A DNA stretch of 64,000 bases from Fusobacterium ulcerans ATCC 49185 (GTDB taxonomy: Bacteria; Fusobacteriota; Fusobacteriia; Fusobacteriales; Fusobacteriaceae). Of this stretch, positions 1-16,002 are shown piece by piece. A program made the translations under genes and the position numbers. The notes below the pieces were generated by a model that was given only the letters and a program-made list of their open reading frames with translations, had not been told where the DNA came from and did no database searches. Every line of letters starts with the position of its first letter. The stretch's first letter is position 1. Location: NCBI RefSeq assembly GCF_900683735.1, contig NZ_LR215979.1:1922001-1986000 (forward strand), read 5' to 3'.

Positions 1-3000
1 GCGCTTAAGTAGTCATTATCTTTAATCTGTACTTCAAGTCCGCCATTGCTTCCTGCGCTTTCTGTAAAACCATCTACTTTTCCATACTCTAAATCTAAAT
101 CTGCATATATATCCAATTCCCTTGATAAATCTGTATAGATAACTTTTGTTATTCTGTTATCAAGTGCTACAGAGTAAGTATTGTACTCTCCCTTATTCTC
201 AAATGTTTCATGAAGATTAAGCTTTCTCTCAGCTATATGTCTGTTGTATCCTAGTTCTATTCTTGATAACCATGATACTTTATGTTCTTCACTTAGATTT
301 TTAACTCTATGTACTCCTGCTCTCAATGAATATACATCCTCTTTTGAATCATTTTCAAATTCAAATCTCGATCCTGTAAATCCTAGTGTATATCCATATT
401 TGCTTCCATACTCTGTTCCTTCTTTTTCTTTCATGTAAAGAAGACCCATTATCTTGTAATCATAATCTTCTATTCCTAAAGTTGGATCTTTATAATCTCC
501 ATCAGTATAGATTACACTATACTTACTGCTGTCTTTAGTTAGATTGTATGATGATTCAAGCTCATAGAAAGAGTTATCAAATGCTCTGTTGATATCCTGC
601 ATTCTTCCTTGAATAGTTGAATAGATGTCTCCTCTTGTTTCTGCAAGTTTTCTAGATGTTTCTCCTTCAAATTGATCTGCAGAAAGCCCTTCCAAGTATG
701 CATTCAATCCTTTTAATATCTCTGCATCTTTTCCTATTCCTCCACTGTTAGCAAGAATATTATCAAGTCCTTTATCCAATGCATCAAACTGTGTTCCTAT
801 TGTCAAATCTGCATATGGTCTTTTTGCAATAGTAAGATCTCCATCTCCTGTCACTTTTGCAATAAATAGAGGTGATGTTATAGGAGTAAACTTTGTTTCA
901 TCCAATGCTCCTGCTACTGCATTTACAAAATTCTGTATTACATATGTGATTCCATTTCCTGTTAGTGCAAAGTTTGGAAGAATATTTACTTCTCCACTTA
1001 TGTTTCCTGCATTGAATACTGGCATTCCTGTTGTTACATCTACATATGCTCCATTTACTACCAGATTTCCTACTGTTGAAATTGTTCCACCTTTTCCTAT
1101 GTAATTACCATTAATATGTATATCTCCATTTGAGTCAATTTTTATACTTCCTACTTCTGCACTTCCTACACCTGTAGTTTCAACTTTTGTCCCTGAATAT
1201 CCAGGTATAACTACAATATTTCCTGTATTTTCAAGAATTCCTTGACCTTCTATTCCTACTCCATTTTTTACCTCTATATATCCATTATTTTGGAATTTTG
1301 CATTTATTCCTACTACCATTCCTGCACCTTTATCTACCTTAATAACTCCATTATTAATTATTTCTGCAGTGTTATATGCTGCCATTCCTACTGTTATTGC
1401 TCCATAATCACTATCTACATTTCCTAAATTGATAGTCCCTGCATTGACAGCTACAGCTCCATTTTGTACTAGGATTCCTACTCCACCTTTATCAACATTG
1501 ATAGTTGCTCCTGATGCATTTGTAATATGTGTTCCTTCTCCACTTCCATAAATACCTACTGAAAAATCCTCTTTTACATTTATAGTTCCAGTATTATTTA
1601 CTGTAGTTCCATTTGTTACATATATACCTACTGAGTTTAGATGTTTTTCTTTATTATTAGGCTCTCCATTTATATTTGTTTTCCCTACAGTTATTGTTCC
1701 ACTATTATTTACTGTATTTGTTCCACTAGAATAGATTCCTACTGCTGCCATTCCTAATGTCATATTTGCTTTATTGTTAATTGTTGCTGACTGTGATGCT
1801 TTCTGTCCTGCATTTTGCTTCACAAAGATTCCATATCCGCTGACTCCTACATTGAAAGTGGTATTCATTGTTGTTTCTATAATTCCTCCTCCATTCAATT
1901 TGTAGATTCCAACTGAACCTTTATCATCTTTTCCATTTCCCTTATCAGCAATAATTATATCTCCATTCTGTGTTACATTACCATTTCCTTCACTTACAAT
2001 ACCTATACTTGTATTTGTGCCAACTGCTATATCTCCTGTTACTGATGTATTCATTCCTTTAGCATATACTCCTATAGAATTGTTATCTCCAATTGTTATT
2101 CCAGTAGTACTTACACTTAATTCCTTAGTTCCTTCACCATAGAATCCTAAAGCTGAATTTCCTACTTGAAGACTTCCTCCAGTATAGTTTATGTTTCCAT
2201 TTTGCATACCAGTAGCATATAGCCCTATTCCATTATTTCCAACAAGAACATTTCCAGTTCCGTTATAGCTTCCACCATTCAGTACCACTCCCACAGACAT
2301 ATCTTCTGTAGCAGTAAGACTTGAATTCTGTACAGTTATTGAAGTTATGCTTAAATTGCTTCCTGTTCCCAATACTCCAATATTTTCTTTTCCTCCTACA
2401 GTTATAGCTCCTAATGCAGTAGTAGAATCTGAAGTTAAGATTCCTACTTTATTCTGTCCTCCTGTAACTGATATTGCCCCATTGACTGTATTTGTTCCAC
2501 CCTTAATAGCAGCCTTAATTGAATAGTCAGCATCTGTTATTGTTGGAAGATTTATAGTTCCTAAAGTATTTAAATAATATCCTCCAATAGAATAATTATC
2601 TTTATCACCAGTATGAAGGGTTATTGTTCCTGATGGTGTTCCTAAAGATGTTCCTTCAATTACATATCCAACACCTTTTGTAACATTTAAAGTTCCAACA
2701 TCAATATTTCCTTGACCCTTCAGATACATTCCTATACCATTGTCAGTTACATTTATAATTGATGTATTAGTAATATCTCCAACCTCGTTATACATACCTA
2801 CTGCATCTTTTCCACTTACATTTATTTCCCCATTATTCTCTACAATAGCATAATTTCCTACAGCAGTATTTTCATCTTTTGTTGCTGCTAGTCCAAAACC
2901 ACCAGTCTGTACATTTATAACTCCTGATACATCATTTTTTACGCTATATCCACTTCCACCACTGTACTCTCCAAGTAACCCTGCTGATCCATTTCCTACT

Positions 3001-6000
3001 GTAATAGTTCCTGAATTAGAAAGACTTCCATCCTTTGTTGCTGCTAGTGTTCCTGCTCCACTTCCTATAACTATATTAGCTCCAAGATTTACTGTACCTC
3101 CATCATTATATGAAAGTATTCCGCCATTTCCATTAAAGTTTACTGTTAGATTTCCTGTTGTTCCTAAATTAGCAATAGTACCTGTTCCAGCATATACTCC
3201 TATTCCATTTCCTGTTATATTAATAGTTCCAGCATTAGCATTAAGTGTAGTTCCTAGATCTTTTAAATAGATTCCTACTGCTCCATTTTTTACATTTGTT
3301 GTTGATGAATACTCTATTCTATTTCCATCTTCTGTATATATACCAACTGCTCCTGATGCAGAAGCATTTATTGTAGAATTTCCTACCGTATGATTTGATG
3401 ATGATCCACCAAGGTATAATCCTATAGCTGATCCAGTAGCTATATTTGTAACTTCACCAGCTGTTATTACTGCTCCATTTACACTAGCTGTATCATCTGC
3501 AAGATAAACTGCAACAGTATCTTTTGAATTTCCAGCATTTATAGTTCCAGATACTACTGTTCCACTCTCAGCATATATTCCAGTTCCCCCTGTTCCATTA
3601 ATAGTAACTGGGAAGTCTATTTTTGCACCGCTTTTTCCATATACTCCTACTGAACCAGCAGCAAGAGCTATAGTTCCTGCATTTGTTATTTTTCCTGCTC
3701 CTGTTCCTTCAAGAATGATACCTGTACCACTTCCAGTTATACTTATTGTTCCACCAGCACCATTAAATCCTGCACTTGTTCCTTTTACAAATACTCCAGT
3801 TCCTGATGTTACATTTATATTTCCTGCATTTATTCCTATACTAGTTCCATCTTCTCCTACATACATTCCAAGATTAGCACCTGCTGTTATTGTGCCACCA
3901 GTTGTATTTTCTATTGTTGCTGTTTTTCCTGCAACAGCTTTAGCTATCATTCCTACAACTGATTTACTTGATGCGCTTGCTGCCCCATTCATTGTAATAG
4001 TTCCTGAGTTGATTCCTTTACCTTCTTCTACATAGATTCCTATACTGTCATTATCATTCATTGTGATAATTCCTGTTGAAGTCAGTTGAGAACCTCCTCC
4101 TATATATGAAGCTATACTGTCACTCTGCCCAGCTGTTGATGTAATGTCAGAATTATTTACTAAAGTTATTCCATCTGCTGCATATATTCCTACACCATTT
4201 TTTCCTGTAAGTTCAATCTCAGATCTATTTGTTACAGGTCCTGATGCAGTTCCTTTACTATAATACACTCCTATATTATTACCAGTTGAAGAATTATTTA
4301 CAGTTATTTTTCCTCCAGTTGCATATGCACCATCTGTAAGGTACATTCCTGTTCCTTTGTTAGTTGTACTGACAGTTCCTATATTTAGAGTAAGTTCTGT
4401 ATCTATATTTACAGCTCCTCCACTTCCATATACTCCTATTGCTCCTGATGTTGTATTTCCTGTCGCTGTAACAGTTCCTTTTATTTTTGATTCTCCATCT
4501 ATGAATACTCCTGTAGTTTTATCTCCAGTCGCTGTTACTTTTACATCTAAACTATTATTTCCTTTAGAATAAATTCCTATTGCTCCATTTTCAACCTTAA
4601 GTTCTCCTGTTCCTTTAACTGTACTTCCTGTTCCAGCATTTTCTAGATATATTCCTACTGTTTTATTTCCAAGTGTTGTTGGAGTTCCCATTCCATTTAC
4701 TGTTACTGTTTTACCATCAGTAATTTCTACAGCAGAATCTTTTCCATATACATAGATATTTTTATTTTCATTATTATTTGCAAAAGTCAAATTATCTTTG
4801 AAGTTTACTTTTGCACCTTCTGCATAGACTCCTATACTTGATTTCCCATCAAATACTATATTATTGTTAGTATCAAGTTCAGCTGTTGCTCCAGATTTAA
4901 CATAGATTCCTGTAGCTCCATCTACTTTTAGCTTAATTGTTCCTTTATTTATTGCTTTACCATTAGCTCCATCTGCATACATTCCTATTTGAGAAGAATT
5001 CCCAACATTAATTATTCCATTACCTGTTTCATTGGCGATGGTTGTATCTTTTCCATACATCCCTATTGCTTTTTCATTTGCTTCAAGTTCAATTGTTCCC
5101 TGATTTGTTCCTATTCTGCTTATTACTGGCCCAGCTCCTGTCTTTGCAACAAAAATACCTATTCCTTCTGTTCCAACTGTTAAAGATCCAGAAGAAGTGA
5201 CATTCATATCTTGTACATATATAGCTGTTCCTTTTACAAAATTTGAGGCATTTATATCTAAGTCTATATCTTGGCTGTCACTTCCAGTTGATGAACCTTT
5301 ATAGAAAATACCTGTTTTTCCATTAATATCCACTGTATTTTCTTTGCTTTCTAAAGTAACAGTAGTAGCTTCAAGAGTTGATGTTCCATCAAGCATTACT
5401 CCTATTCCATCTGAACCAAGTTTTAATGTTCCAAGTTTTGTAACATTACTTCCTTCTGTTGCATAGATAGCTACTCCGCCACTTCCTACTGTTATATTTC
5501 CTTTATTTGCAATTGTAGCTTTCTTTCCATAGATTCCTATAGCTGCAGTAAAATTATCTGAATCTCCTACTGTTATTGTTCCTAAAGTATCATTAGTTAC
5601 TACATTATCTGCAGCTGCTCTGCCAGTGTTGTTATTGTTAGCATAGATTCCTATTGTTCCTATTCCATCAAGAGCAATATTACCTGTATTTGTAATAGTT
5701 ACTTTCCCTTGTTCAGCAAAAATGCCTCCAGTTCCAAATTCATTTGTTAGTATATTTCCTTCATCATCTTCTCTATATGCCATTCCCAAAATACCTATGG
5801 ATTGATTTCCTTTTACTTCTATATTTCCAGCATTATCAACTTTACTTCCATTTACGGCATATACTCCCACTGCTTTGTCATTAACTGTATTCGCCCCTTT
5901 TTCAACTTCCACTCCAGCACCTGCTGTAATATCTATTTTACCAAAGTTCATGTAAAGACCAATAGCTCCTACACCTGTATCTGTTCTATCTGCTATTACT

Positions 6001-9000
6001 TTAGACCCTGCTGCAAGATTTATCTGAGCATCTGTTGCACTTGCTGCTGATTTACTTGAATTCATTTCAAGCCCAACTACCTGTCCTTTAAAATTTGCTT
6101 CTGCATCAGAGCTATTAATTTCTGATTTTACTTCTATATTAGCTAAAACATTTAGATTAAGTCTTTGACCTAAAAATCTTCTATAGTAAAAGAACCCTGT
6201 TGAAGTTGTATCAGTATCTGATTTATTCATATGAGCATTAATGTTTAAAGTTCCTCCATCTACAGCTGCTATTTTATATTTATCAAATACTTGATTTCCA
6301 TCTGTTCCAGCAACTATATTTACTCCACCTAATTTAGCTTCTATATCTGTTTTAAGTGTTCCTATATTTAAAGCTCCTATATTTTTAAGATTAACTCCTA
6401 CTGCATCATTAGACATTACTACAATCTTAGCTCCAGTCAAAGTTATTGGATTAGGAGAAGAATCGTTATTTAAATCTAATTCAAGAGCTGTGGCTTTTCC
6501 TCTCAGAATTATTTCTCCATCTGTTAAATTAACAGTTCCTACCCCATCAGAGTAGACTGCATATCCATTTCCTTCATAATCTACAATTCCATTTGTTATA
6601 TCTACATTAGAATTACTTCCAATAGATGCAATTCCAACAGACCCATCTTTTACTTTTACATATGTGTTTTTAGTATTTATTTTTCCACCATTGTTAGCAA
6701 ATAATCCTACTCCTTTAACTAAACCTGATACAGTAGTTCCTTCAACATAAATATTTACTGGTGCTGTTGGTTCAATTATTCCACCACCAAATCCAGTCTC
6801 TGAATGATCTAGTGAACTTCTATTAGCTGTTATTTCTCCATTATCAGTTGAATATATTGCAATACTATCCCCTGACAAATTCAAACTTAATTTATCTTCT
6901 GCTATATTTATTGCTGTTCCACTGTCTTTAGCATATAGGGCAACACTATCCTCAATTTTCTTAGTATTATCTCCAGCTGTCGCATTACCATTTATAGTTA
7001 TTTTTTTCCCATTTTGTGCAATTGCTATCTGGTTGTTTTTTCCATTTTCTATTAAAATATCTCCTTCAAACTTTACATCTCCCCCTTGAGCAATTATTCC
7101 AATATTTCCTTCTCCACCAGATATTTTTATACTACTGTTTTCTGCTGGAACTCCATATGGTTTTAAAATTTCAATTGTTCCGTTATTTGCAAATATTCCT
7201 ATTCCCCCATATGAATACTCTCCTATTTCTATTTGGGCTGCTGTTTTTGTTGTACTTAAATTGTCCATCAGTATTCCAATAGCTTGCTCTACTAAATTAG
7301 GATCATTTTCTCTGTCTACAAAAATATTATTTACAGAATTCCCTTTTGCTATAGTTTGTTTTTTCTTTCCAATACTGAACTTCACTATATTTTTTTCATT
7401 TGTTATATTGGTATTTTGTGCAACTAAACCAATACTTTTATCTCCTAATAATTCGATTGGTTTTTTTATATATGCTGCATGTCCATTTTTAAACTGCTTA
7501 TTATCTGACATATATAAAGCAATTGCCTCTGCTCCTCTTATTTCAGCAGTTCCTTCATTTACAAATGCAGCTTCATTAGCATCTAAATTACTATAAACCC
7601 ATTGCATTAATGAAGCTCCTACTCCATCTACATATATCTTTCCAGTTGGGCCATTTGAATAAATATATGCTTTGGATTGTTGTGTATCTGGAGAATGCAT
7701 ATATACAGCTGATTTATCTCCATTAACTATAATTGTTCCTTCATTATCTAAATAATTTGTTCTAAGTCCGCCATCTGTATGTGATGTTGTAAAAAAATAC
7801 GCCGAATTTGTTCCATTTATTTCTACTTTACCTTTATTAACAAATAAAAGCTCCGTATTATCCTCGCCTTTAATTCCAGTATATGTCTGATACTCTCTCA
7901 ATCTATCACGTGTTGCTGAAGTTATTAGCCCTTCTGCAACTCTATCATCTAAATTACCATTTACTATTCCCTCAGTTTCAAGATCAATAAGTTTAGCATT
8001 ATTTGAATTAAAAGTTATTTTTACATTTTCTCCATAATATGAATATGGTACATTTAATAAAGTATGAAAAAAATCTTCATTTACAGTATATGTTCCATCT
8101 GTTGGTTTACTACCTTGAGGAGATGTTCCAGAAAATGCTTCTGCATCATAACCTGTTACTCCTACACTATAATTTCCTGAATTTCCATTTATAATATATT
8201 CTCCAGATTTTAAACTTATTTGAGATATTACTCCATCATTTCCATCCCACCAGAAGTATTGTACACTCGGATTTGCTCCACTTCCAGCTATTGATGGAGT
8301 TGAAATATTTATTGGAACTATTACTTGTATTGAAGGAGCTTTTGGAGGATTTATCATAGTTGGCTCATATCCTCCAGGTGCTGTAGGGGCACTTACTGTT
8401 ATATTTTTTTCTGCTGGTGTTGTTGGTGTTGTTACTGTTGGTGCTGTTACATTTATTGAGGCAACTGCTCCAGGTGTAGTCACATTAATTGTTGGTGTTA
8501 TAATTGAAGGAGGAGCTGTAGGTGAGTTTGGACTACTAGGTGTTATATTTGGTACTCCTGTAATTTGTGGTATTCCTATTGAAACATTAATTACTTTATT
8601 TATTTCAGGAAGTACTGGCACTACTGGTTTGATATTTGCTCCTACTTCTATTGTTTCTCTAAATACCTCAGTATCTACAGCCACTCCATTTCCTGCTATC
8701 AATTTATCTTTTCCTATGTTTCCTGTAGATTTTAATATACTTCTTCCACTTCTTGTTTCATAATGCTTGTTTATTGCATCTATTGTTTCTGAAAACTCTT
8801 TATCTGTTACATCTTTCATTTTTCCACTATCTAAATGCTGATAGCTGAAAAAAACTTGTGTACTGTTGAATAAAGGCTTAGAGTAAAAATCTCCCTTTCT
8901 TACAAGTTCCACAAAGTTTGAGTTGTATTCTTTTATTAATCTCTCATTTTCTACTATTTTTCTTTTTATTTCTTCCCGCTCTGTTTGTATTCTGCTTAAA

Positions 9001-9155
9001 AGATCTCCCTTACTTTCCTGTATCTCCTCTGCTGTTATTTCTGCTCCTAATGATATTCCTCCTATTATCATGAAAGATATTAAGAGTGCAAGAGAATAAC
9101 TCACTTTTCTTTTTAGAAATCTTTTTAGAGATTTTTCAATATCGCCTTTTCTCAT
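1..9155 (-). CDS. Giant autotransporter adhesin (type Va), C-terminus beyond window
   Basis: This is an open frame of about 3,051 codons running off the left edge. I translated about 550 codons at the N-terminus and about 300 at the C-terminal end and spot-checked frames between. The ATG at 9155 follows GGGGGA at good spacing. The first ~40 residues are a basic, extended signal region of the kind seen in Fusobacterium autotransporters. A Pro/Thr-rich segment follows (about 8,290-8,640). The long passenger is built of short degenerate repeats reading roughly VGIYA, each with Gly/Asn/Thr-rich turns, as expected of a beta-helix. From about 690 down to 1 the translation switches to alternating beta strands typical of an autotransporter barrel, after a helical linker near 560-690. 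Likely role: surface adhesin exported by its own barrel. The gene follows a small coiled-coil gene by 13 bp. It resembles RadD/Fap2-class proteins in architecture only; orthology is not claimed. Confidence 0.93.
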   Translation of the reverse strand, partial: MRKGDIEKSLKRFLKRKVSYSLALLISFMIIGGISLGAEITAEEIQESKGDLLSRIQTEREEIKRKIVENERLIKEYNSNFVELVRKGDFYSKPLFNSTQVFFSYQHLDSGKMKDVTDKEFSETIDAINKHYETRSGRSILKSTGNIGKDKLIAGNGVAVDTEVFRETIEVGANIKPVVPVLPEINKVINVSIGIPQITGVPNITPSSPNSPTAPPSIITPTINVTTPGAVASINVTAPTVTTPTTPAEKNITVSAPTAPGGYEPTMINPPKAPSIQVIVPINISTPSIAGSGANPSVQYFWWDGNDGVISQISLKSGEYIINGNSGNYSVGVTGYDAEAFSGTSPQGSKPTDGTYTVNEDFFHTLLNVPYSYYGENVKITFNSNNAKLIDLETEGIVNGNLDDRVAEGLITSATRDRLREYQTYTGIKGEDNTELLFVNKGKVEINGTNSAYFFTTSHTDGGLRTNYLDNEGTIIVNGDKSAVYMHSPDTQQSKAYIYSNGPTGKIYVDGVGASLMQWVYSNLDANEAAFVNEGTAEIRGAEAIALYMSDNKQFKNGHAAYIKKPIELLGDKSIGLVAQNTNITNEKNIVKFSIGKKKQTIAKGNSVNNIFVDRENDPNLVEQAIGILMDNLSTTKTAAQIEIGEYSYGGIGIFANNGTIEILKPYGVPAENSSIKISGGEGNIGIIAQGGDVKFEGDILIENGKNNQIAIAQNGKKITINGNATAGDNTKKIEDSVALYAKDSGTAINIAEDKLSLNLSGDSIAIYSTDNGEITANRSSLDHSETGFGGGIIEPTAPVNIYVEGTTVSGLVKGVGLFANNGGKINTKNTYVKVKDGSVGIASIGSNSNVDITNGIVDYEGNGYAVYSDGVGTVNLTDGEIILRGKATALELDLNNDSSPNPITLTGAKIVVMSNDAVGVNLKNIGALNIGTLKTDIEAKLGGVNIVAGTDGNQVFDKYKIAAVDGGTLNINAHMNKSDTDTTSTGFFYYRRFLGQRLNLNVLANIEVKSEINSSDAEANFKGQVVGLEMNSSKSAASATDAQINLAAGSKVIADRTDTGVGAIGLYMNFGKIDITAGAGVEVEKGANTVNDKAVGVYAVNGSKVDNAGNIEVKGNQSIGILGMAYREDDEGNILTNEFGTGGIFAEQGKVTITNTGNIALDGIGTIGIYANNNNTGRAAADNVVTNDTLGTITVGDSDNFTAAIGIYGKKATIANKGNITVGSGGVAIYATEGSNVTKLGTLKLGSDGIGVMLDGTSTLEATTVTLESKENTVDINGKTGIFYKGSSTGSDSQDIDLDINASNFVKGTAIYVQDMNVTSSGSLTVGTEGIGIFVAKTGAGPVISRIGTNQGTIELEANEKAIGMYGKDTTIANETGNGIINVGNSSQIGMYADGANGKAINKGTIKLKVDGATGIYVKSGATAELDTNNNIVFDGKSSIGVYAEGAKVNFKDNLTFANNNENKNIYVYGKDSAVEITDGKTVTVNGMGTPTTLGNKTVGIYLENAGTGSTVKGTGELKVENGAIGIYSKGNNSLDVKVTATGDKTTGVFIDGESKIKGTVTATGNTTSGAIGVYGSGGAVNIDTELTLNIGTVSTTNKGTGMYLTDGAYATGGKITVNNSSTGNNIGVYYSKGTASGPVTNRSEIELTGKNGVGIYAADGITLVNNSDITSTAGQSDSIASYIGGGSQLTSTGIITMNDNDSIGIYVEEGKGINSGTITMNGAASASSKSVVGMIAKAVAGKTATIENTTGGTITAGANLGMYVGEDGTSIGINAGNINVTSGTGVFVKGTSAGFNGAGGTISITGSGTGIILEGTGAGKITNAGTIALAAGSVGVYGKSGAKIDFPVTINGTGGTGIYAESGTVVSGTINAGNSKDTVAVYLADDTASVNGAVITAGEVTNIATGSAIGLYLGGSSSNHTVGNSTINASASGAVGIYTEDGNRIEYSSTTNVKNGAVGIYLKDLGTTLNANAGTINITGNGIGVYAGTGTIANLGTTGNLTVNFNGNGGILSYNDGGTVNLGANIVIGSGAGTLAATKDGSLSNSGTITVGNGSAGLLGEYSGGSGYSVKNDVSGVINVQTGGFGLAATKDENTAVGNYAIVENNGEINVSGKDAVGMYNEVGDITNTSIINVTDNGIGMYLKGQGNIDVGTLNVTKGVGYVIEGTSLGTPSGTITLHTGDKDNYSIGGYYLNTLGTINLPTITDADYSIKAAIKGGTNTVNGAISVTGGQNKVGILTSDSTTALGAITVGGKENIGVLGTGSNLSITSITVQNSSLTATEDMSVGVVLNGGSYNGTGNVLVGNNGIGLYATGMQNGNINYTGGSLQVGNSALGFYGEGTKELSVSTTGITIGDNNSIGVYAKGMNTSVTGDIAVGTNTSIGIVSEGNGNVTQNGDIIIADKGNGKDDKGSVGIYKLNGGGIIETTMNTTFNVGVSGYGIFVKQNAGQKASQSATINNKANMTLGMAAVGIYSSGTNTVNNSGTITVGKTNINGEPNNKEKHLNSVGIYVTNGTTVNNTGTINVKEDFSVGIYGSGEGTHITNASGATINVDKGGVGILVQNGAVAVNAGTINLGNVDSDYGAITVGMAAYNTAEIINNGVIKVDKGAGMVVGINAKFQNNGYIEVKNGVGIEGQGILENTGNIVVIPGYSGTKVETTGVGSAEVGSIKIDSNGDIHINGNYIGKGGTISTVGNLVVNGAYVDVTTGMPVFNAGNISGEVNILPNFALTGNGITYVIQNFVNAVAGALDETKFTPITSPLFIAKVTGDGDLTIAKRPYADLTIGTQFDALDKGLDNILANSGGIGKDAEILKGLNAYLEGLSADQFEGETSRKLAETRGDIYSTIQGRMQDINRAFDNSFYELESSYNLTKDSSKYSVIYTDGDYKDPTLGIEDYDYKIMGLLYMKEKEGTEYGSKYGYTLGFTGSRFEFENDSKEDVYSLRAGVHRVKNLSEEHKVSWLSRIELGYNRHIAERKLNLHETFENKGEYNTYSVALDNRITKVIYTDLSRELDIYADLDLEYGKVDGFTESAGSNGGLEVQIKDNDYLS

Positions 9156-9168
9156 ATATCTTTCCCCC

Positions 9169-9750
9169 TTAGTTTCCTATTCTTATTTTTTGTTCCATCT
9201 TATCTAGTCTGCTCAAGTATTCATTAAGCTTCTCATTTTCATGTAATAGAAGTTCAATCTCGCTGTTATTAGAATCAAATTCATCATATACTTCATCATA
9301 TTTCTGACTTAAGAATACTCTTTTTTCATTTGGATTTATTCCTATTGCCTCTTCTAATTTCATGATTTCTTCTTCCTCTTCCCTTAAGAATGTCATTCTG
9401 TCTTTTCCTATTTTTAGTGCTTCTTTTGCTGCTGCCATTCTTGCTTCAGGTGTATTCTCACTTCTAAATACTTTTTCCTCAAGTGATTCATTCTGATTTC
9501 TTCTTATATCTTCAATTATTTTCTTCCCTTTTCTCTCTTCTTCCTTTGCAGCAGCAATTCTTGCTTTCTCAGCTTCTTCCTCTGCCTTCTTTGCATCTTC
9601 AATAGCTTTCTGTTTTGCCCTTTCCTCTGCCTTTATCTCTCTTCTTATCTCTTCCAAAACTTTCATTCCTTCTTTTTCACTTATTTCTTGCGCATGAAGA
9701 CTTGTTCCTAATATAGACAAAAGAAAAATGCCTGCAATTATTTTTTTCAT
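9169..9750 (-). CDS. Secreted coiled-coil protein upstream of autotransporter
   Basis: A 193-residue protein with a Sec signal peptide (MKKIIAGIFLLSILGTSLHA, cleavage after HAQ or nearby) and a strongly charged helical body rich in Glu, Lys, Arg and Ala. Residues about 25-85 are EEAEKAR-like and almost certainly form a coiled coil. A second helical block spans 105-190. GGGAGG precedes the ATG. It sits 13 bp upstream of the autotransporter gene, so the two are probably cotranscribed. I do not recognise a named family. A periplasmic or surface partner of the autotransporter is a guess from position. Confidence 0.85.
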   Translation of the reverse strand: MKKIIAGIFLLSILGTSLHAQEISEKEGMKVLEEIRREIKAEERAKQKAIEDAKKAEEEAEKARIAAAKEEERKGKKIIEDIRRNQNESLEEKVFRSENTPEARMAAAKEALKIGKDRMTFLREEEEEIMKLEEAIGINPNEKRVFLSQKYDEVYDEFDSNNSEIELLLHENEKLNEYLSRLDKMEQKIRIGN

Positions 9751-9807
9751 AAATCCTCCCTCTGTTTCTTTATTATTGATTAGTTTTTTATAAAGCTTTT
9801 ATAAAAA

Positions 9808-9843
9808 ATAAAGGCATTGTGAAATAAGAGCACAATACCTTTT
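9808..9843 (-). terminator. Terminator inside the adhesin gene cluster
   Basis: Arms AAAGGcATTGTG (9810-9821) and CACAATaCCTTT (9831-9842) pair with one mismatch. Read leftward they are followed by a T-rich run. The hairpin follows the second FadA-like gene and precedes the 193-residue protein gene. It should partly or fully separate the small-protein genes from the autotransporter. Confidence 0.6.
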
Positions 9844-9856
9844 CAATACTTAATGT

Positions 9857-10243
9857 TTATCTTAAACTTTTTAATTGGTTAAATTCGAATACTTTTCTCT
9901 CTTCTATTTTTACCTGTTTATCTATATCGCTTACAAATACTTGGTATTGCTTTAATATTTTTTTTACTTCTTCATTGTAAATACTTTTTCCTTCCATATT
10001 CATAAGCATTTGAGTTCTTTCATTACTCTTCCCTTTTAATGTCGTTAATAAATTCAAATTCTCCTGTGCTGTTTTTGCTATCATTTCTTCCTGCTTGAAT
10101 CTCTCATTTTCCTTCTGCTCCAGCATCTTCAGTTCTGCCTCAAGTTGTGAGAATTTACTGTCTAATGTCATATCTGCTGCTGCTAGATTTGCTGATATTA
10201 ATATTGCGCCTAATCCCAATAATATACTTTTTTTAATTTGCAT
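9857..10243 (-). CDS. FadA-family adhesin paralogue
   Basis: A 128-residue protein with a signal peptide (about 1-22, ending LAAA) and an all-helical mature part of about 105 residues. FadA is a small secreted fusobacterial adhesin that forms antiparallel helical hairpins and filaments. The mature start (KFSQLEAELKMLEQKENERF) aligns with the FadA N-terminal helix, and the C-terminus ends in an F-x-Q-L-K-S-L motif like FadA's ending. It is more divergent than its upstream neighbour and lacks FadA's central FYK-Q-Y-x-x-LASKY block. It lies 31 bp downstream of the closer FadA homologue. The family call is from recalled FadA sequence, not a search. Confidence 0.75.
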   Translation of the reverse strand: MQIKKSILLGLGAILISANLAAADMTLDSKFSQLEAELKMLEQKENERFKQEEMIAKTAQENLNLLTTLKGKSNERTQMLMNMEGKSIYNEEVKKILKQYQVFVSDIDKQVKIEERKVFEFNQLKSLR

Positions 10244-10274
10244 AATTCTTTCTCCTTTGATTTAAAATATTTTT

Positions 10275-10667
10275 TTATTTACTTTTATTTGTTTTTAATG
10301 CTTCTAATTGTCTAAATCTATTAATTATATTTTCCTGCTCTTTCATTTGCGCTTCTAAATCTTTTAAAGCTGCTTGATATTTTGATGCAAGCTCTCCATA
10401 TTGCTCTTTATAGAATTTCACATCTTTCATTTGATTTAATTTTGCTACTTTTTCTGATAATTGATTGTATATTTCTCTTTGTTTAGCCAAAGTTGATTGT
10501 GCTGCTTCTGCTATCTTTTTCTCTGTATTAAATTTTTCCTGCTCTTTTTGTATCAATAGATTGTATTCCTGTTCCAAACCTTTGAAACGCGCTTCAAGAT
10601 TATCCACTTCTGCTCCCATCATTGATGCTGATAATACAATTGTTCCTAGTACTAATAGTTTTTTCAT
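10275..10667 (-). CDS. fadA: FadA-family adhesin
   Basis: I chose the ATG at 10667, seven bases after GGAGG, over the upstream ATG at 10679. The protein is 130 residues. Its signal peptide (MKKLLVLGTIVLSASMMGA) is followed by a helical hairpin. The segment IYNQLSEKV...FYKEQYGELASKYQ matches F. nucleatum FadA (VYNELSQRA...FYKSQYQDLASKYE), and the end QLEALKTNK matches FadA's KIQALRAGN. FadA binds host cadherins in F. nucleatum and polymerises at the surface. Whether this copy does so is inference. Position in an operon with lipoproteins and an autotransporter supports a surface role. Confidence 0.9.
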   Translation of the reverse strand: MKKLLVLGTIVLSASMMGAEVDNLEARFKGLEQEYNLLIQKEQEKFNTEKKIAEAAQSTLAKQREIYNQLSEKVAKLNQMKDVKFYKEQYGELASKYQAALKDLEAQMKEQENIINRFRQLEALKTNKSK

Positions 10668-10682
10668 AAATCCCTCCAAAGT

Positions 10683-11177
10683 TTATTTTTTATTAAGTTC
10701 TTCTAGTAAATTTAATTTCTCTATTATTTCTTTTCTTCTCTCTTCCCCTATATTCTTATTTCCAAGTTCTTTATTCATTTTATTCAACTCTTCAAACAGT
10801 TCTTCTTTTGTCATTTTTTTAAGTCTTGCTTCCTCTTTCAGCTTCGCTTCTTCTCTCAATCTTTTTTCTTCTTTTATTCTTTCTTGTTCCCTTAATTTCT
10901 CCTGCTCTTTTAGCTTCTCTTGTGCTCTTATTTTTTCTTGTTCCTTTAACTTTTCTTCTTCCCTTGCTCTTTCTTGAGCTTTTAGTCTTTCCTGCTCTTT
11001 TATTTTTTCTTGTTCTCTTAACTTCTCTTGTTCTTTTAATTTATTCTTTTCCATTGCCAGGTTTAGTAATCTCTGCCTATTTTGATCCATATTTTCTGCA
11101 CTTGGTCTGCTGTTTTGATTTGAACATCCTATCAATATTAAAGAAAGTAATAAAGAAGCTAACACTGCTTTTTTCAT
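10683..11177 (-). CDS. Lipoprotein with hexapeptide single-helix repeat
   Basis: The start at 11177 has GGAGG eight bases upstream. A lipoprotein signal (ASLLLSLILIGC, lipobox Cys18) is followed by about 27 linker residues. Then come about twelve tandem six-residue units of the type K-L-K/R-E-Q-E (residues 46-121), giving a continuous E/K/R-rich helix. A C-terminal helical segment (about 122-164) follows. Such E-R/K periodicity is known to make stable single alpha-helices that act as rigid spacers. It probably stands off the outer membrane or spans the periplasm. No named family recognised. It starts 18 bp after the upstream lipoprotein gene. Confidence 0.85.
   Translation of the reverse strand: MKKAVLASLLLSLILIGCSNQNSRPSAENMDQNRQRLLNLAMEKNKLKEQEKLREQEKIKEQERLKAQERAREEEKLKEQEKIRAQEKLKEQEKLREQERIKEEKRLREEAKLKEEARLKKMTKEELFEELNKMNKELGNKNIGEERRKEIIEKLNLLEELNKK
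10815..11042 (-). repeat. Degenerate 18-bp tandem repeat in lipoprotein gene
   Basis: About twelve 18-bp units encode the six-residue K-L-K-E-Q-E repeat. The units differ at third positions and by conservative changes (K/R, L/I, Q/E/A). All are multiples of three, so gain or loss of units would keep the frame and change helix length. Confidence 0.8.
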
Positions 11178-11195
11178 AGACATTTCCTCCATTTG

Positions 11196-11816
11196 CTAAT
11201 TACTTTTATTTTCTTCTTCTACTTTTTCACTTTTTATTTTTTCTTCTTTTACTTCTTCTTTCATTATTTTTTCATCTTTTGCTTTTTCATCTTTTTTTAC
11301 TTCTTCTTTATTTACTTTTTCATCTTTTATGATTCCTTCTGCTTTTAAAATATCATTGAGTTTATATTTTTCAATCACAGAATTATAGTAATCTACTTGA
11401 GCTTTTGTAAATTTTTCATTTGCTAAATTCTGATACAAAAGTGGAAGTGTCTCTTCTAATGTCTTGCTGTTATATCTTTCTTTATTTTTCTCATAATAAT
11501 CTTGTACTTCTTTATCTGTTACAGCAGTTTTTGATTTCAGTTCTCTCTCTACAAAGTAATTAACCTTTAGATTTTCCTGAGCCTTTTTTATACTCTCTAT
11601 CTCTTCTGGTGTATATTGCGCATTATCAGCTTCTATCACTAATGCTTTATACACTAGTATTTTCGCTATTTCATCTTTATCCAGTTGTTTTTCTTTATCT
11701 GTTAAAGTTATTTTTTCTTCTTTTTTCACTGAAGTATCCTTAGTTGAATCACATCCCACCATTATTACTCCAAGTATAAAAACACAAATAATTCTCTTAA
11801 ATATTTTCATTGACAT
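11196..11816 (-). CDS. Lipoprotein with SurA/PpiC N-terminal-like helical domain
   Basis: A 206-residue lipoprotein with signal FILGVIMVGC (lipobox Cys22). The body KILVYKALVIEADNAQYT ... VTDKEVQDYYEKNKERY resembles the N-terminal chaperone domain of SurA/PrsA-type folding factors, where T-x-x-E-V-x-x-Y-Y is recurrent. No parvulin catalytic domain follows. The C-terminus (about 160-206) is a low-complexity Lys/Glu tail. Role as a periplasmic chaperone for the adhesins encoded downstream is an inference from resemblance and position. It lies 3 bp from the next gene's ORF. Confidence 0.75.
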   Translation of the reverse strand: MSMKIFKRIICVFILGVIMVGCDSTKDTSVKKEEKITLTDKEKQLDKDEIAKILVYKALVIEADNAQYTPEEIESIKKAQENLKVNYFVERELKSKTAVTDKEVQDYYEKNKERYNSKTLEETLPLLYQNLANEKFTKAQVDYYNSVIEKYKLNDILKAEGIIKDEKVNKEEVKKDEKAKDEKIMKEEVKEEKIKSEKVEEENKSN

Positions 11817-11847
11817 TTTCTATTTTTTCTCCTTTTATGTGTACTTA

Positions 11848-12057
11848 TTAATCTATCTTTCCTCTTATTTCATTCATTAGTTGTTCATTTTTTTCTTGAT
11901 ATGTCATAGTTTTTGCCTCTTTCTCTTTAGATGTTTCCATATAGGCTTTTCTTCTCTGCTCTAGTATATATCTGGGATCATCTTTATTTATATTTTGACT
12001 TGAGCAACTTACAAAAAAAATACAGCATGGTATAACTGACAAAATAAATTTCTTCAT
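11848..12057 (-). CDS. Small lipoprotein
   Basis: A 69-residue protein with a lipoprotein signal (MKKFILSVIPCCIFFVSC, probable lipidated Cys18 followed by SSQN) and a short charged helical mature part. AAAGGAG precedes the ATG. It lies 23 bp after the HU-like pair and 31 bp before the next lipoprotein. No family recognised. It is one of several small lipoproteins in the adhesin operon. Confidence 0.75.
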   Translation of the reverse strand: MKKFILSVIPCCIFFVSCSSQNINKDDPRYILEQRRKAYMETSKEKEAKTMTYQEKNEQLMNEIRGKID

Positions 12058-12080
12058 ATTTCTTTCTCCTTTAATTAAAA

Positions 12081-12380
12081 TTATTTAGACATTTCATTTA
12101 TTTTCTTTATTATATTTTTAGCTATAACAAATTTTACTGTTTTAGGTGGAGTTATTGTCATTCTTTCTCTAGTTGATGGATTACTTATGACCCTCTCCTT
12201 TTTTTGTAATATTTTAAATTTTCCCTTTTTTTGTAATTTTACTTCTCCATCTTTTAATAAACCAACTTTTAAAGTTTCAAAAAAAACTTCTAAATCCATT
12301 CTAGCTTCTTTTAAATTTTTTATTTCTCCATTATGAGAAGTTTTTTTTCTATATTCATTAATAAAACTTTTTTTATTCAT
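12081..12380 (-). CDS. HU/IHF-family DNA-binding protein, divergent (second copy)
   Basis: 99 residues, the usual HU length. The helical start (MNKKSFINEYRKKT) is the HU dimerisation region. The strand segment KLQKKGKFKILQKKER is the F-K-x-x-G-K/F-F block. RVISNPSTRERMTITPPKTVKFVIAKNI carries the DNA-bending arm with its conserved N-P and ending in the usual K-F-x-x-x. Its ATG overlaps the stop of the upstream HU-like gene (TAATG), so translation is coupled. Both HU copies are strongly divergent from housekeeping HU and from each other, which suggests a specialised heterodimer. Confidence 0.85.
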   Translation of the reverse strand: MNKKSFINEYRKKTSHNGEIKNLKEARMDLEVFFETLKVGLLKDGEVKLQKKGKFKILQKKERVISNPSTRERMTITPPKTVKFVIAKNIIKKINEMSK

Positions 12381-12712
12381 TAGCTTTCACATTCCTTTTC
12401 ATTAAGCAGTTTTTTTAAATTATCCCCAGCAGCAAATTTTATTATTTTTTTTGGAGGTATCATTTTCTTTTCAAGCATATAACTACTTTCCCCTTTCTTT
12501 TTAAATGGAAGAACAACTCTCCTTGGGTTAGTTTCTCTTAATTCAAACTTTCCAATTCCCTTAAAAATTACTTTTTTCTCTTTTAAAAGCGATTCTATAA
12601 GGGTTTCCCATATAGAATCTATTTTCTGTTTTGCTACTTTTGCTGATGCTATTTTTTCACCTTTTTCTCTATATAAATCTACATAGAGTCTTAAAAAATC
12701 TTTCTCCCTCAT
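12380..12712 (-). CDS. HU/IHF-family DNA-binding protein, divergent (first copy)
   Basis: 110 residues. GAGGGGG sits just upstream of the ATG. The core VIFKGIGKFELRETNPRRV matches the HU G-x-G-x-F-x-x-x-x-x-x-x-R block, and IPPKKIIKFAAGDNLKKLL matches the HU C-terminal P-x-K-x-x-x-F-x-x-G-x-x-L signature. It is the first gene of the leftward adhesin cluster, directly downstream of the candidate invertible promoter segment. HU and IHF are accessory factors for site-specific inversion in other bacteria (Hin, fim). A role in the neighbouring inversion or in regulating the operon is a hypothesis. Confidence 0.85.
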   Translation of the reverse strand: MREKDFLRLYVDLYREKGEKIASAKVAKQKIDSIWETLIESLLKEKKVIFKGIGKFELRETNPRRVVLPFKKKGESSYMLEKKMIPPKKIIKFAAGDNLKKLLNEKECES

Positions 12713-12757
12713 CTTTCCCCCTCTCTATTATTTTCTCTATTCCACGTTTTTTAAAGT

Positions 12758-12783
12758 GTTCTCGTTTATGTATAAATGCGAAC
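12758..12783 (+). repeat. Left inverted repeat of the candidate inverton
   Basis: 26 bp with ends GTTC and GAAC and centre TTTATGTATAAA. Flanking bases extend the self-palindrome (AGTGTTC at 12755, GAACACT at 12780). It lies 45 bp upstream of the HU-like start codon. Confidence 0.85.
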
Positions 12784-12875
12784 ACTTGCAAAAATATTTT
12801 TGTAATTTTATATTAAAAGAACGTTTATTTTGAAGAACTTTACTTTATACCAGTTGTTTTTTTTCAAAAAAAATC

Positions 12876-12904
12876 TTGACATTATTCATTAAGAAAGATA
12901 TTAT
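12876..12904 (+). promoter_or_regulatory. Sigma-70 promoter inside the inverted-repeat segment
   Basis: TTGACA (12876-12881), 17-bp spacer, TATTAT (12899-12904), reading rightward. No gene lies downstream in this direction before a terminator. Three ATTAAGAA motifs (12887, 12910, 12938) overlap or follow it and could be regulator sites. Confidence 0.65.
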
Positions 12905-12988
12905 ATACTCATTAAGAATATACATTTTTTTATTAGGAATTAAGAATGTTATAGTTAATTTTGTATGCTTGAAATTTTTCTTAAAAAG

Positions 12989-13014
12989 GTTCGCATTTAT
13001 ACATAAAGAAGAAC
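12989..13014 (-). repeat. Right inverted repeat of the candidate inverton
   Basis: 26 bp with ends GTTC and GAAC and centre TTTATACATAAA. Its sequence equals the reverse complement of the left copy except at two adjacent positions. Confidence 0.85.
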
Positions 13015-13089
13015 TATAAGAAAATCCCTCTTTATTTTTGTCATTCTTTATTTTATTTACTGAGTAAAATTTTTTGTAATATAAAAAAA

Positions 13090-13115
13090 TACAGAGATTT
13101 TACTCTCTGCATTTT
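13090..13115. terminator. Bidirectional terminator
   Basis: The hairpin CAGAGA...TCTCTG has T-rich runs on both sides. It ends leftward transcription of the phage-like genes and rightward transcription from the inverton promoter. Confidence 0.65.
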
Positions 13116-13125
13116 ATTTTTTCTT

Positions 13126-13419
13126 TCAGCTTCTATTCTGTTTTATCAACTGTTCCTCTATCCTTGTCATTCTCTCTTCTATCCTGTTTATTCCATCTGC
13201 AAGGGTTTTTATATTCTCCTTTCTGAATTTCTCAGCAAAGATTCTTTCTTTCTCGCAGTCTGTTTTATCCACTTTCTTTTCAAAGAGTGAAAGGATATAT
13301 TTGTGATAGGCCAGAAGAAATGTTATGATGGTTGTTACTATCTTGAAATATATTTCTCCATTCTCATTCACTTTTCTCCCCTTCCAGTTTTCCAAATACA
13401 GCTTCGTATATCTTGCCAT
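13126..13419 (-). CDS. Small phage holin-like membrane protein
   Basis: 97 residues with one hydrophobic segment (about 24-46, IYFKIVTTIITFLLAYHKYI). A C-terminal coiled coil (about 75-97, GINRIEERMTRIEEQLIKQ) is typical of phage XhlA/holin-like or tail-associated small proteins. Its start lies inside the end of the small upstream frame. It is the last gene of the leftward phage-like cassette and is followed by a bidirectional terminator. Function is not certain. Confidence 0.65.
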   Translation of the reverse strand: MARYTKLYLENWKGRKVNENGEIYFKIVTTIITFLLAYHKYILSLFEKKVDKTDCEKERIFAEKFRKENIKTLADGINRIEERMTRIEEQLIKQNRS

Positions 13420-13543
13420 CTACCTTGCTTTCAGTTCTTTCCACAAGTTCTCCTATAGCAGTTATCAAGATATTTTCCACTGTTTTAGTCCCTAGCCATT
13501 TGTAGATAAAGTATTTTAAGAATTTAAGTACTAGTGTTTTTAT
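13364..13543 (-). CDS. Small ORF with strong SD but no standard start codon
   Basis: GGAGG is followed seven bases later by an in-frame ATA at 13543, then about 58 sense codons to TGA. The product would be amphipathic and basic (about KTLVLKFLKYFIYKWLGTKT...). The nearest standard start is GTG at 13480, with no good SD. It overlaps the start of the 97-residue gene in another frame. It is either translated from ATA, translated from the GTG, or a remnant. Confidence 0.35.
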   Translation of the reverse strand: MKTLVLKFLKYFIYKWLGTKTVENILITAIGELVERTESKVDGKIYEAVFGKLEGEKSE

Positions 13544-13576
13544 ACTTGCTCCTCCTTTCCTGATTCCTAGCTTCTA

Positions 13577-13894
13577 CTATGCTTCTGGTGTATTATTTTT
13601 TACATAAAAGCTGTATGCTGCAAGTAAACTTCTGTACTTGTCTATTGTTCCCAGTGAAGTGTTGTAAGACTTAATTTCTTTCTCTGCGCTTTCCTGCCAG
13701 TCACTGTATGATTCATATGCTGAATTTTCTGGGAATGCTGTTCCCGCCTCCACTAATTCTCCTATATGCTCCAAAGTTGCTGTGATGTCATCTATATTTT
13801 TCAATATAGCCTTTTCTCTCTTAATTGCATTTTCCACCTTTACAATTTCCTTTTGTACCACTGTTAAAATTACTTGATTTTCTTCTGATGCCAT
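13577..13894 (-). CDS. Hypothetical helical protein of the phage-like cassette
   Basis: I chose the start at 13894 (MASEEN) because GGAGG precedes it. An in-frame ATG at 13954 lacks an SD. The 105-residue product is mainly helical, with a central acidic stretch and no membrane segment or signal. I do not recognise the family. It sits between the excisionase-like HTH gene and the small membrane-protein genes, and is probably a phage or element accessory protein. Confidence 0.6.
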   Translation of the reverse strand: MASEENQVILTVVQKEIVKVENAIKREKAILKNIDDITATLEHIGELVEAGTAFPENSAYESYSDWQESAEKEIKSYNTSLGTIDKYRSLLAAYSFYVKNNTPEA

Positions 13895-13975
13895 TTTGTT
13901 ACCTCCTATGTTTTTGTTGTTTCCATAGGTATATGATACTCTGGATGACAGCAATTAAACAGTGACGAATTGTTA

Positions 13976-13992
13976 CAATTTGTTACAAATTG
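13976..13992. promoter_or_regulatory. Possible operator palindrome
   Basis: CAATTTgttacAAATTG lies in the 112-bp gap between the helical-protein gene and the HTH gene. Two TTGTTACAA-like halves occur next to each other. It may be bound by the adjacent HTH protein; this is inferred from position only. Confidence 0.3.
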
Positions 13993-14006
13993 TGAAGCTC
14001 TCAAAA

Positions 14007-14246
14007 TTATTCCATCAAAAAAATCAAGCTCCTTGTATAAATTAAAATTTTATTTCCAATTCTTCTATTGAGAACTTCTCCCCCTTCCACTTTGTCATAA
14101 ATAGTATTTTTATGTCTTTTAAAATACTTGGCTACTTCCTCTATTGTTGCCCATTCTCCAAGTTGCTCCACCATTTTCTCTACCAGCAGTTTATCAAAAT
14201 TTGAAAGACTTCCTAATTTTTGACACATATAATCTTCTCTAGTCAT
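14007..14246 (-). CDS. Excisionase/MerR-type small HTH DNA-binding protein
   Basis: 79 residues. The segment WATIEEVAKYFKRHKNTIYD is a classic helix-turn-helix of the excisionase type, followed by a short wing (GNKILIYTRS). AAAGGAG lies upstream. It is part of the leftward element cassette. It may regulate the cassette or act as a recombination directionality factor, but no integrase is present in the window. Confidence 0.75.
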   Translation of the reverse strand: MTREDYMCQKLGSLSNFDKLLVEKMVEQLGEWATIEEVAKYFKRHKNTIYDKVEGGEVLNRRIGNKILIYTRSLIFLME

Positions 14247-14307
14247 TTTGCACTTCTCCTTTTAGGTTTATATCCCTTTGTTTTTCTTTTGTATACTCTC
14301 TTCCCAT
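14239..14307 (-). CDS. Possible 22-codon ORF between DnaC-like and HTH genes
   Basis: An ATG at 14307 follows AGAGG, and 22 codons run to TAG, overlapping the start of the HTH gene by 8 bases. The product would be very hydrophilic. It could couple translation of the HTH gene. Weakly supported because of its length. Confidence 0.25.
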   Translation of the reverse strand: MGREYTKEKQRDINLKGEVQND

Positions 14308-14324
14308 TTTTCCTCTTGAATTTT

Positions 14325-15131
14325 TTAAGATATAAATTCTGCAAATCTCTTCTGGGTCATTCCCCTTCTGCTCTTCCCTGTTACTTCTACTGGAAAACAC
14401 ATATCTATTATTCTGTCTCTTATCCTGTTCTGCCCTTGTGTAGAGAATTTCTCACTTAACTCGCATTTTCCCTCATCTGCACTGAAATTCAAATTTGTTG
14501 AAATTATAAGGGGCTTCTCGCTTCTATATCTCCCATCAATGAGATTGTATATCTTTTCAGCCCTCCATCCTGTCTGATTTCTATCTAGTCCTTTTTCACT
14601 GCCGAAATCATCAATAATCATCAAGTCGCATTTTTCTGTCTGCTCCAGAACTACTTTCTCAGCTTCTCCCCACTCCATAGTCAGTTTGTTAAAATACAGT
14701 CCTAGATTAATTACCAATACAGTCTTCCCTCTTTCCATGAGATAATTAGCTATACAGGCACTTGCAAATGTCTTTCCTGTTCCTACTCCTCCATACAGGA
14801 GCATTCCCTCTCTTTTGTCCTTGCTAATAAAGCTCTCTGCATATCTTTTTGACAGCTGCATATAATCATTTTTCATATCAGCGCTTTCAAATCTGCTTCT
14901 TGTGAATTTTTCATCCGTCACAGAAATATCCTTACACTTTTTCATCTTGTTTTTCATACATTCCTGCATCCTCTTCCTTTCCAATTCCTCCAGTTCCTTT
15001 GTTTTATTTTCTTCCAGACAATTACAGGCTGGTATATATTCCAGATTCTTTTTAAAAATCTCTGGAAGGGAATCCATATACTTATATGGATTTTTCATAT
15101 ACTCTTTCCCGCAAAATTGACATTTTATCAT
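14325..15131 (-). CDS. DnaC-like helicase loader (AAA+ ATPase)
   Basis: I prefer the ATG at 15131, eight bases after GGAGG and one base after the upstream stop, over the ATG at 15155. The N-terminus has a C-x2-C...C-x-C zinc-finger-like pattern (CQFCGKEY ... PACNC). The ATPase core has Walker A GGVGTGKT, Walker B LMIIDDFG, sensor IISTN and the C-terminal QNRIRDRI arginine-finger region of DnaC/DnaI/IstB proteins. It should load the replicative helicase at an origin opened by the preceding initiator. The pairing with the upstream HTH gene is typical of phage and plasmid replication modules. Confidence 0.85.
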   Translation of the reverse strand: MIKCQFCGKEYMKNPYKYMDSLPEIFKKNLEYIPACNCLEENKTKELEELERKRMQECMKNKMKKCKDISVTDEKFTRSRFESADMKNDYMQLSKRYAESFISKDKREGMLLYGGVGTGKTFASACIANYLMERGKTVLVINLGLYFNKLTMEWGEAEKVVLEQTEKCDLMIIDDFGSEKGLDRNQTGWRAEKIYNLIDGRYRSEKPLIISTNLNFSADEGKCELSEKFSTQGQNRIRDRIIDMCFPVEVTGKSRRGMTQKRFAEFIS

Positions 15132-15132
15132 C

Positions 15133-16002
15133 TTATTTTCCTCCATTTGCTCCATTGAGCAAGTCTTTTATAAAGTCCCCTGTAGTATTCTCATATGCTG
15201 GTCTTTCAAACTCTTTCTTGTTCTCATAGGTATTCTTTGTTCTATTTGCTTTATCTTTAAAATTTCCATTGAGGGCTTTTTTAAGATTTTCAATTTTAAA
15301 TATTGCATTTATACTCATATTGTTTTTTACAAATTCAGATTGAGCCATCAATGTCAGTGCTTCATACAGCTTTGCAATTCCCAACTCCCTATATGCTTTT
15401 AAGATAATATAGTTCTCTGGAGGATATTTAAAATCTGGCAGTCCTAAATCTCTGTATTTTTTTAATATCTGCTGTATTTCTACAGGTATATCTTTCATTT
15501 TTTCTTTTTTAACTTCTGTTTCTTCTGCAATTATTTCATTTTGATTCTCTGTGTATATTATATTATTTATCTTTATGTTATTATTTATATTGTTATTATT
15601 AGTGTCCTTTTGACCGTATCTGGCAGTTTCCATATCGGTTGTCGCCATACATGGTAAAACCATATACGGCAAAATATTTATAGTATATAGATTTTGTGCA
15701 AACTTCCCTTTTTCTTTATGCTGTATTACAGTTATATACCCATTGTCTTTCAATTCTTTAATATATTTTACTAATGTTCCTTTATTTATTCCTAGATCTG
15801 CAGATATCAATTTTTGTGATGGAAAGGCGCTATGTCCTTTTCCTGTATAACTGCATATATAAGCATAAATAGCTTTAGATATAACATTTAAACTTCTGTC
15901 TTTCATTATCTTTTTTGCTATAAATCCATACCCCTCCTTATATACTCCCTTCACTTTAATTGCATTTGTTGTTGTTTCATTTTTTTCTGTTGATAAAATC
16001 AT
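15133..16002 (-). CDS. Phage/plasmid replication initiator, winged HTH
   Basis: 289 residues. Residues about 30-100 form a winged helix (SKAIYAYICSYTG ... AFPSQKLISADLGINKGTLV) as in phage replication O-like and DnaD-associated proteins. A low-complexity Asn/Ile linker (about 130-155) is followed by a helical C-terminal domain (about 170-250). GGAGTGG precedes the ATG. It is immediately upstream of the DnaC-like gene, which is the usual initiator-loader pair. No integrase, capsid or terminase gene accompanies it, so this looks like a remnant or a minimal element. Confidence 0.75.
   Translation of the reverse strand: MILSTEKNETTTNAIKVKGVYKEGYGFIAKKIMKDRSLNVISKAIYAYICSYTGKGHSAFPSQKLISADLGINKGTLVKYIKELKDNGYITVIQHKEKGKFAQNLYTINILPYMVLPCMATTDMETARYGQKDTNNNNINNNIKINNIIYTENQNEIIAEETEVKKEKMKDIPVEIQQILKKYRDLGLPDFKYPPENYIILKAYRELGIAKLYEALTLMAQSEFVKNNMSINAIFKIENLKKALNGNFKDKANRTKNTYENKKEFERPAYENTTGDFIKDLLNGANGGK

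Follow-up and report, generated by a model that had tools for sequence, protein, structure and literature searches.

In uropathogenic Escherichia coli the ipuS-ipuR-upaE, fimS and hyxS switches are served by the tyrosine recombinases FimB, FimE, FimX, IpuA and IpuB, and at ipuS-upaE recombinases of ~200 amino acids (aa) invert a promoter that lies before an autotransporter operon (PMC6083910). A single tyrosine recombinase of Clostridioides difficile, RecV, acts in trans on several invertible sequences (PMC7446863), and promoter inversion in Bacteroides fragilis is described as genome-wide, with many surface operons governed by one recombinase, Mpi, acting in trans (Coyne 2003, as cited in PMC11892184). 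For the fusobacteria, homopolymeric tracts have been put forward as a possible source of autotransporter phase variation, none having been demonstrated for the trimeric autotransporters of F. nucleatum (PMC6346709). We have analysed a stretch of 64,000 nucleotides of the Fusobacterium ulcerans ATCC 49185 genome (NZ_LR215979.1, positions 1,922,001 to 1,986,000; hereafter the window), in which a first-pass annotation made from the letters alone had proposed an invertible promoter at positions 12758-13014, in front of a locus encoding FadA-family, lipoprotein and autotransporter proteins. Our comparisons support that proposal through the agreement of 6-bp cores within pairs of sites, the inverted interiors of paralogous loci whose flanks match and the occurrence of promoters in both orientations. 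We consider, with a probability of about 0.9, that the element is a phase-variation switch belonging to a family of promoter inversions served by a tyrosine recombinase in trans; present-day flipping of this particular switch, its effect on expression and the identity of the enzyme are inferred. The parts of the element, in window coordinates, are as follows.

12758..12783, + strand: putative left (gene-side) recombination site, 26 bp, GTTCTCGTTTATGTATAAATGCGAAC, assigned from pair geometry and site pattern
12768..12773, + strand: core ATGTAT, 6 bp, of the left site, the presumed strand-exchange overlap, within-pair identity lying mainly at positions 11-16
12784..12988, no strand: interior, 205 bp, the predicted invertible segment, on the evidence of inverted interiors at paralogous loci
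12876..12904, + strand: sigma-70-like promoter TTGACA-17-TATTAT, directed away from the adhesin cluster (OFF), with 11/12 consensus matches
12989..13014, + strand: putative right (distal) recombination site, 26 bp, GTTCGCATTTATACATAAAGAAGAAC, assigned from pair geometry and site pattern
12999..13004, + strand: core ATACAT, 6 bp, of the right site, the inverse of ATGTAT, assigned from within-pair identity
13086..13115, no strand: hairpin scoring as an intrinsic terminator on both strands (2 found against 0.1 expected; folding z -5.1 and -6.0)

The geometry first described for this pair is correct: with one site inverted, 24 of the 26 positions agree, the sites are separated by 205 bp, and each is palindromic with GTTC...GAAC ends, the palindromes being imperfect. 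The promoter said to lie within the interior is also present, as a consensus match (TTGACA-17-TATTAT), and both sites, both cores and the promoter are intact. No other inverted 26-bp pair with at least 24/26 identity and a spacing of 120-260 bp occurs in the window, 40 shuffled windows yielded none, and the window contains two matches to the site pattern itself, where 0.06 would be expected. Since the promoter points right (+ strand) while the cluster occupies the - strand to its left, the switch is read as OFF; when the interior is flipped in silico the promoter comes to face the cluster, 156 bp before the start codon of its first gene, an anatomy that agrees with the proposed control of the FadA/lipoprotein/autotransporter cluster. 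In the mechanism that we envisage, two inverted 26-bp sites would flank a segment carrying one strong promoter, and a tyrosine site-specific recombinase supplied in trans would exchange strands within the central 6-bp overlap and so flip the segment. In the OFF orientation found here the promoter would fire rightwards into the terminator, and in the ON orientation it would face the operon to the left, with its IHF/HU-like, lipoprotein, FadA and autotransporter genes. The hairpin at 13086..13115 would both end transcripts made in the OFF orientation and shield the cluster from read-through from upstream.

The window pair is not unique. In the 3.84-Mb genome that contains the window (G000) the site pattern occurs 52 times, against four for a reversed control, and mostly as inverted pairs, of which there are ~25 with their members 141-231 bp apart; the single candidate of the first-pass annotation is thereby widened to a genome-wide switch family. 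The three other genomes with sites are congeners (G001, G002 and G003, G002 being F. varium Fv113-g1; PMC5720691), with 49 (G001), 48 and 31 sites. Eleven further genomes were searched: no site was found in six congeners and in four members of the family from other genera, and the congener G005 gave a single weak match. A scan of wider genome contigs for the pattern returned four single palindromes, all from unrelated taxa, and there was no match among the viral contigs searched. Across the four Fusobacterium species 89 pairs were tabulated, and the downstream gene was of the autotransporter type in 52, IHF/HU-like in 19, an outer-membrane barrel in five and something else in 13. The IHF/HU-like genes behind switches head adhesin clusters, all three of the autotransporter-type proteins checked have a PF03797 barrel, and most pair interiors contain a TTGACW-17-TATAAT promoter. 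Outward terminators were found at 9/71 adhesin/HU loci against 0.2 expected, which is an enrichment, yet not one universal enough for a distal terminator to be retained as a general design. Judged by sequence, the switches at L129 3400-3631 (G003:165899), before a Wzz-like chain-length protein gene, and at L131, L142 and L162, before membrane O-acyltransferase-like protein genes, appear to precede genes of surface-polysaccharide type rather than adhesins.

The cores agree within pairs. When 46 distinct pairs were selected on their arms alone, the central 6 bp matched, inverted, in 43, whereas random pairing would give 8.8 and reached a maximum of 19 in 20,000 permutations; an earlier pair selection gave 50/51, and two of the three exceptions among the 46 were wrong partners picked by the script. 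The cores nevertheless vary between loci (ATGTAT, ATCTAT, ATATAA, GTATAT, GTGTAT, ATATAC and ATTTAA, with ATGGAT and AGGTAT in G002), and when examined column by column within-pair identity is in large excess at positions 11-16 and in smaller excess at positions 20-22 on the inner side. Paired cores are expected to be equal, whatever other loci have, because strand exchange requires the same overlap in both sites. This overlap is 6-8 bp for tyrosine recombinases and 2 bp for serine invertases, and a 6-bp core therefore suggests a tyrosine recombinase. Part of the likeness within pairs may stem from duplication of a founding locus, so the core result alone is not decisive. The only pair with truly disagreeing cores (ATACAT and ATCTAT) is that at L116 8474-8650 (G001:1564473-1564649), which adjoins similar switches and is predicted not to invert.

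The comparison of orientation among related genomes, which had been proposed as a check, and among paralogs showed that both orientations are present in the family. The clearest case is a pair of paralogs in G003, at 2099442 and 2279891, whose flanks align (79% on the distal side and 89% on the gene side) and whose interiors are 87% identical when one is inverted (z 20.5) as against 53% in direct alignment (z -0.2). The interior at 2099442 is likewise inverted relative to its homologs at G000 108402 (80%) and G001 1145044 (86%), and that at G000 958543 is in inverted orientation to those at 1641174 and 1132430 (76%), where the similarity of the flanks is weaker. This test is independent of promoter calling, and the direction of the promoter concurs with the inverted homology at 2099442/2279891: at 2099442 a TTGATT/TATATA promoter-like pair is directed toward the gene, and at 2279891, 44397, 108402 and 1145044 it is directed away. 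Wherever a promoter was scored, its direction was away from the assigned gene at 66 loci and toward it at eight, with the proviso that single loci of the downstream class 'other' may be misassigned because the gene side was assigned mechanically. Most loci with a promoter directed toward the gene have ATATAA or GTATAA cores (the loci noted here being L037, L047 (2467943), L177 (3929355), L178, L129 and L137), and nearly all loci with an ATGTAT core are OFF. The core, or else a second enzyme, may influence the bias of inversion. Two further possible signs of flipping were set aside. The half-site types seen in G002 (outer TTAT/TTTA, inner GCC/GCT) were not used as proof, as the inner type shows no correspondence with the direction of the promoter. 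The published induction of fadA and type V secretion system (T5SS) genes of Fv113-g1 in D-MEM was not supported as an instance of promoter flipping, no site of the family being listed near the induced fadA genes, which rough gene-number mapping places near G002 1794741 and 3679459.

As the first-pass annotation had stated, the window is without a recombinase, searches with PF00239 and PF00589 giving no match within it, so that any such enzyme would act in trans; the genome search that it had recommended found tyrosine candidates elsewhere and no small serine invertase. There are eleven PF00589 matches in G000 and one to PF00239, a large serine recombinase of 468 aa. From co-occurrence with the sites, the likeliest recombinase is a FimB-sized protein of 198 aa (G000:C1:992,076-992,672; PF00589 E 3.9e-21) that has the complete catalytic set (R, K, HxxR, H, Y) and whose gene adjoins an IHF/HU-like pair. 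Orthologs of 80-84% identity (group A) are found in each of the other three site-bearing genomes, and the catalytic set is complete in all four. The congeners that have no sites lack an ortholog, G005 and G011 having no more than distant relatives (39-52%). Among genomes of other genera with distant homologs (36-58%), G011, G012, G033 and G063 have no matching sites, and G015, G021, G027 and G032 have site matches at chance level only. G000 has a second paralog, 73% identical, at 1,678,061, which is absent from G001; since G001 has one intact copy of the 198-aa type beside at least 21 tabulated switches, that copy is the natural candidate there. Tandem fadA clusters at L099 7673-10658 and L106 9169-12171 lie beside the second recombinase paralog without a switch of this kind; rough mapping suggests that the tandem fadA pair in G002 could correspond to FV113-G1_14340/14350, which are constitutively expressed (PMC5720691).

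Other explanations of the element have to be weighed against these data. The palindromes could be paired operators, across which a dimeric regulator such as an IHF/HU-like protein loops the DNA and represses the promoter with no inversion at all, and it is true that each site is a near-perfect dyad and that DNA-binding proteins are encoded next door. Operators, however, have no need of a core shared within the pair, yet such sharing is what the 6-bp cores show; nor would they account for interiors inverted between flank-matched paralogs, and a promoter facing away from the genes into a terminator fits poorly with a repressed one. On the strength of the core agreement and the inverted interiors we have rejected this explanation as very improbable. 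Alternatively, the segments may indeed invert, but through the action of a Hin/Mpi-type serine invertase, which would use a 2-bp core. Mpi, which runs the B. fragilis network, is a serine recombinase, and the 26-bp dyads, with GT/AC as their central two bases, are reminiscent of hix-type sites; but the sole PF00239 protein of the genome is the large 468-aa enzyme, and within-pair identity spans six central bases, off-centre variants such as GTATAT and ATATAA included. As the core is of 6 bp and the genome lacks a small serine invertase, this possibility too was rejected, and there is very little chance that it is correct. That a different tyrosine recombinase flips the switches, whether the 73% paralog at 1,678,061, a conserved 189-aa enzyme at 1,340,890 or a XerC/D-like protein, is less easily dismissed and, if doubtful, deserves to be kept in mind, given the eleven PF00589 matches and the fact that related enzymes often share targets, as when four of the five E. 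coli CFT073 enzymes invert ipuS (PMC6083910). The 73% paralog is, however, absent from G001 with its 49 sites, and similar proteins of ~190, ~305, ~340 and ~264 aa occur also in congeners that have no sites.

The conclusion that the element is a working inversion switch served by the 198-aa enzyme has a number of observations against it, and these are best considered together. The link between enzyme and sites is drawn from co-occurrence, which in four related species may be due to shared descent, and G000 has two paralogs of the candidate enzyme. The orientation evidence compares loci and genomes rather than both states in one population, and promoters throughout are consensus matches rather than mapped starts. 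As judged from these promoters OFF dominates strongly overall (66 to 8), and the window switch and its close paralogs with intact promoters (L041, L045 and L164 of G002) are all OFF; the sole inverted member of this subfamily, L054, has a decayed promoter and a mosaic interior, mainly inverted relative to the window (77% inverted as against 67% direct). At L054 4854-5099 (G000:3783353-3783598) the centre and ends are inverted and two inner segments of ~20 bp are in the window orientation. The predominance of OFF speaks for the view that the family inverted formerly but that the window switch is now locked OFF, or flips too rarely to matter. We think this unlikely, as both sites, the cores and the promoter of the window switch are intact and an assembly shows only the majority orientation.

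The adhesin cluster to the left of the switch was first described as having ten leftward genes; we count eight of at least 80 aa, as follows.

12380..12712, - strand: IHF/HU-like DNA-binding protein, 110 aa, first gene of the cluster (PF00216, E 1.5e-9)
12081..12380, - strand: second IHF/HU-like DNA-binding protein, 99 aa (PF00216, E 6.2e-14; closest NCBIfam model IHF alpha, below cut-off)
11196..11816, - strand: lipoprotein-like protein, 206 aa, lipobox VMVGC (from sequence; no Pfam match)
10683..11192, - strand: lipoprotein-like protein, 169 aa, lipobox LILIGC (from sequence; no Pfam match)
10275..10679, - strand: FadA-family adhesin (PF09403, E 4.1e-26)
9857..10243, - strand: FadA-family adhesin (PF09403, E 1.9e-19)
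9169..9750, - strand: secreted charged protein, probably coiled-coil, 193 aa (from sequence; no significant Pfam family)
3..9155, - strand: autotransporter-type giant protein, at least 3051 aa, continuing past the window edge (open frame; N-terminus like those of other cluster autotransporters)

Near-copies of the whole cluster, with switch, IHF/HU-like, lipoprotein and fadA genes, number four in the genome (L041, L045, L054 and window 1-16000), some with broken genes, such as a fadA with stops near C1:2209834. Upstream of the switch (window 13126-16002) lie a DnaD-like and DnaC/IstB-like gene pair and two small ORFs; the adhesin clusters at L034, L039, L041, L045, L052 (partial) and L054 also have this module upstream, and it looks like a phage- or plasmid-derived replication module that travels with the clusters.

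FadA and the autotransporters are the main adhesins studied in fusobacteria. Because the window switch is one of ~25 in its genome, one enzyme could diversify the cell surface combinatorially. A tentative extension of this idea is that one FimB-sized recombinase in trans runs a network of ~25 surface switches in gut fusobacteria, in which the locus-specific 6-bp cores might serve as addresses that restrict recombination among different loci, and IHF/HU-like genes located behind several of the switches might feed back on inversion, one flip shifting the odds elsewhere. If most of the repertoire of the F. varium group is indeed phase-variable and mostly OFF in culture, then laboratory cultures under-represent what the cells show on their surface in the gut, and strains that differ in adhesion may do so through the state of their switches rather than through gene content.

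We saw inversion mentioned nowhere in the F. varium genome paper (PMC5720691), nor did we find any report of such a Fusobacterium switch network in open-access papers, a scope outside which falls the 2019 inverton survey, which may list some. The homopolymeric-tract suggestion (PMC6346709) concerns the same genus and protein class as the targets of the window switch, and no DNA inversion is described there. The element resembles ipuS-ipuR-upaE in having an invertible promoter of 0.2-0.3 kb before an autotransporter-containing operon and in its presumed flipping by a tyrosine recombinase, and IHF assists the E. coli fimS switch (PMC6083910). It differs in that the E. coli repeats are of 7-16 bp, with three switches in that strain, whereas the Fusobacterium sites are 26-bp dyads at ~25 loci, and the E. 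coli type of gene neighbourhood is not seen at the Fusobacterium switches. With RecV it shares one trans-acting tyrosine recombinase for several invertible sequences (PMC7446863), an arrangement that is proposed in Fusobacterium; the C. difficile sequences, however, total seven or eight, and their targets are flagella, CwpV, CmrRST and others rather than FadA and type V autotransporters. As in the Mpi system, many surface operons have similar invertible promoters, but the B. fragilis targets are capsule operons, while the Fusobacterium sites have a 6-bp core and the genome is without a small serine invertase. Promoter inversion as a mechanism is thus already known, and it is the size of the family, its targets and its locus-specific cores that are the interesting features here.
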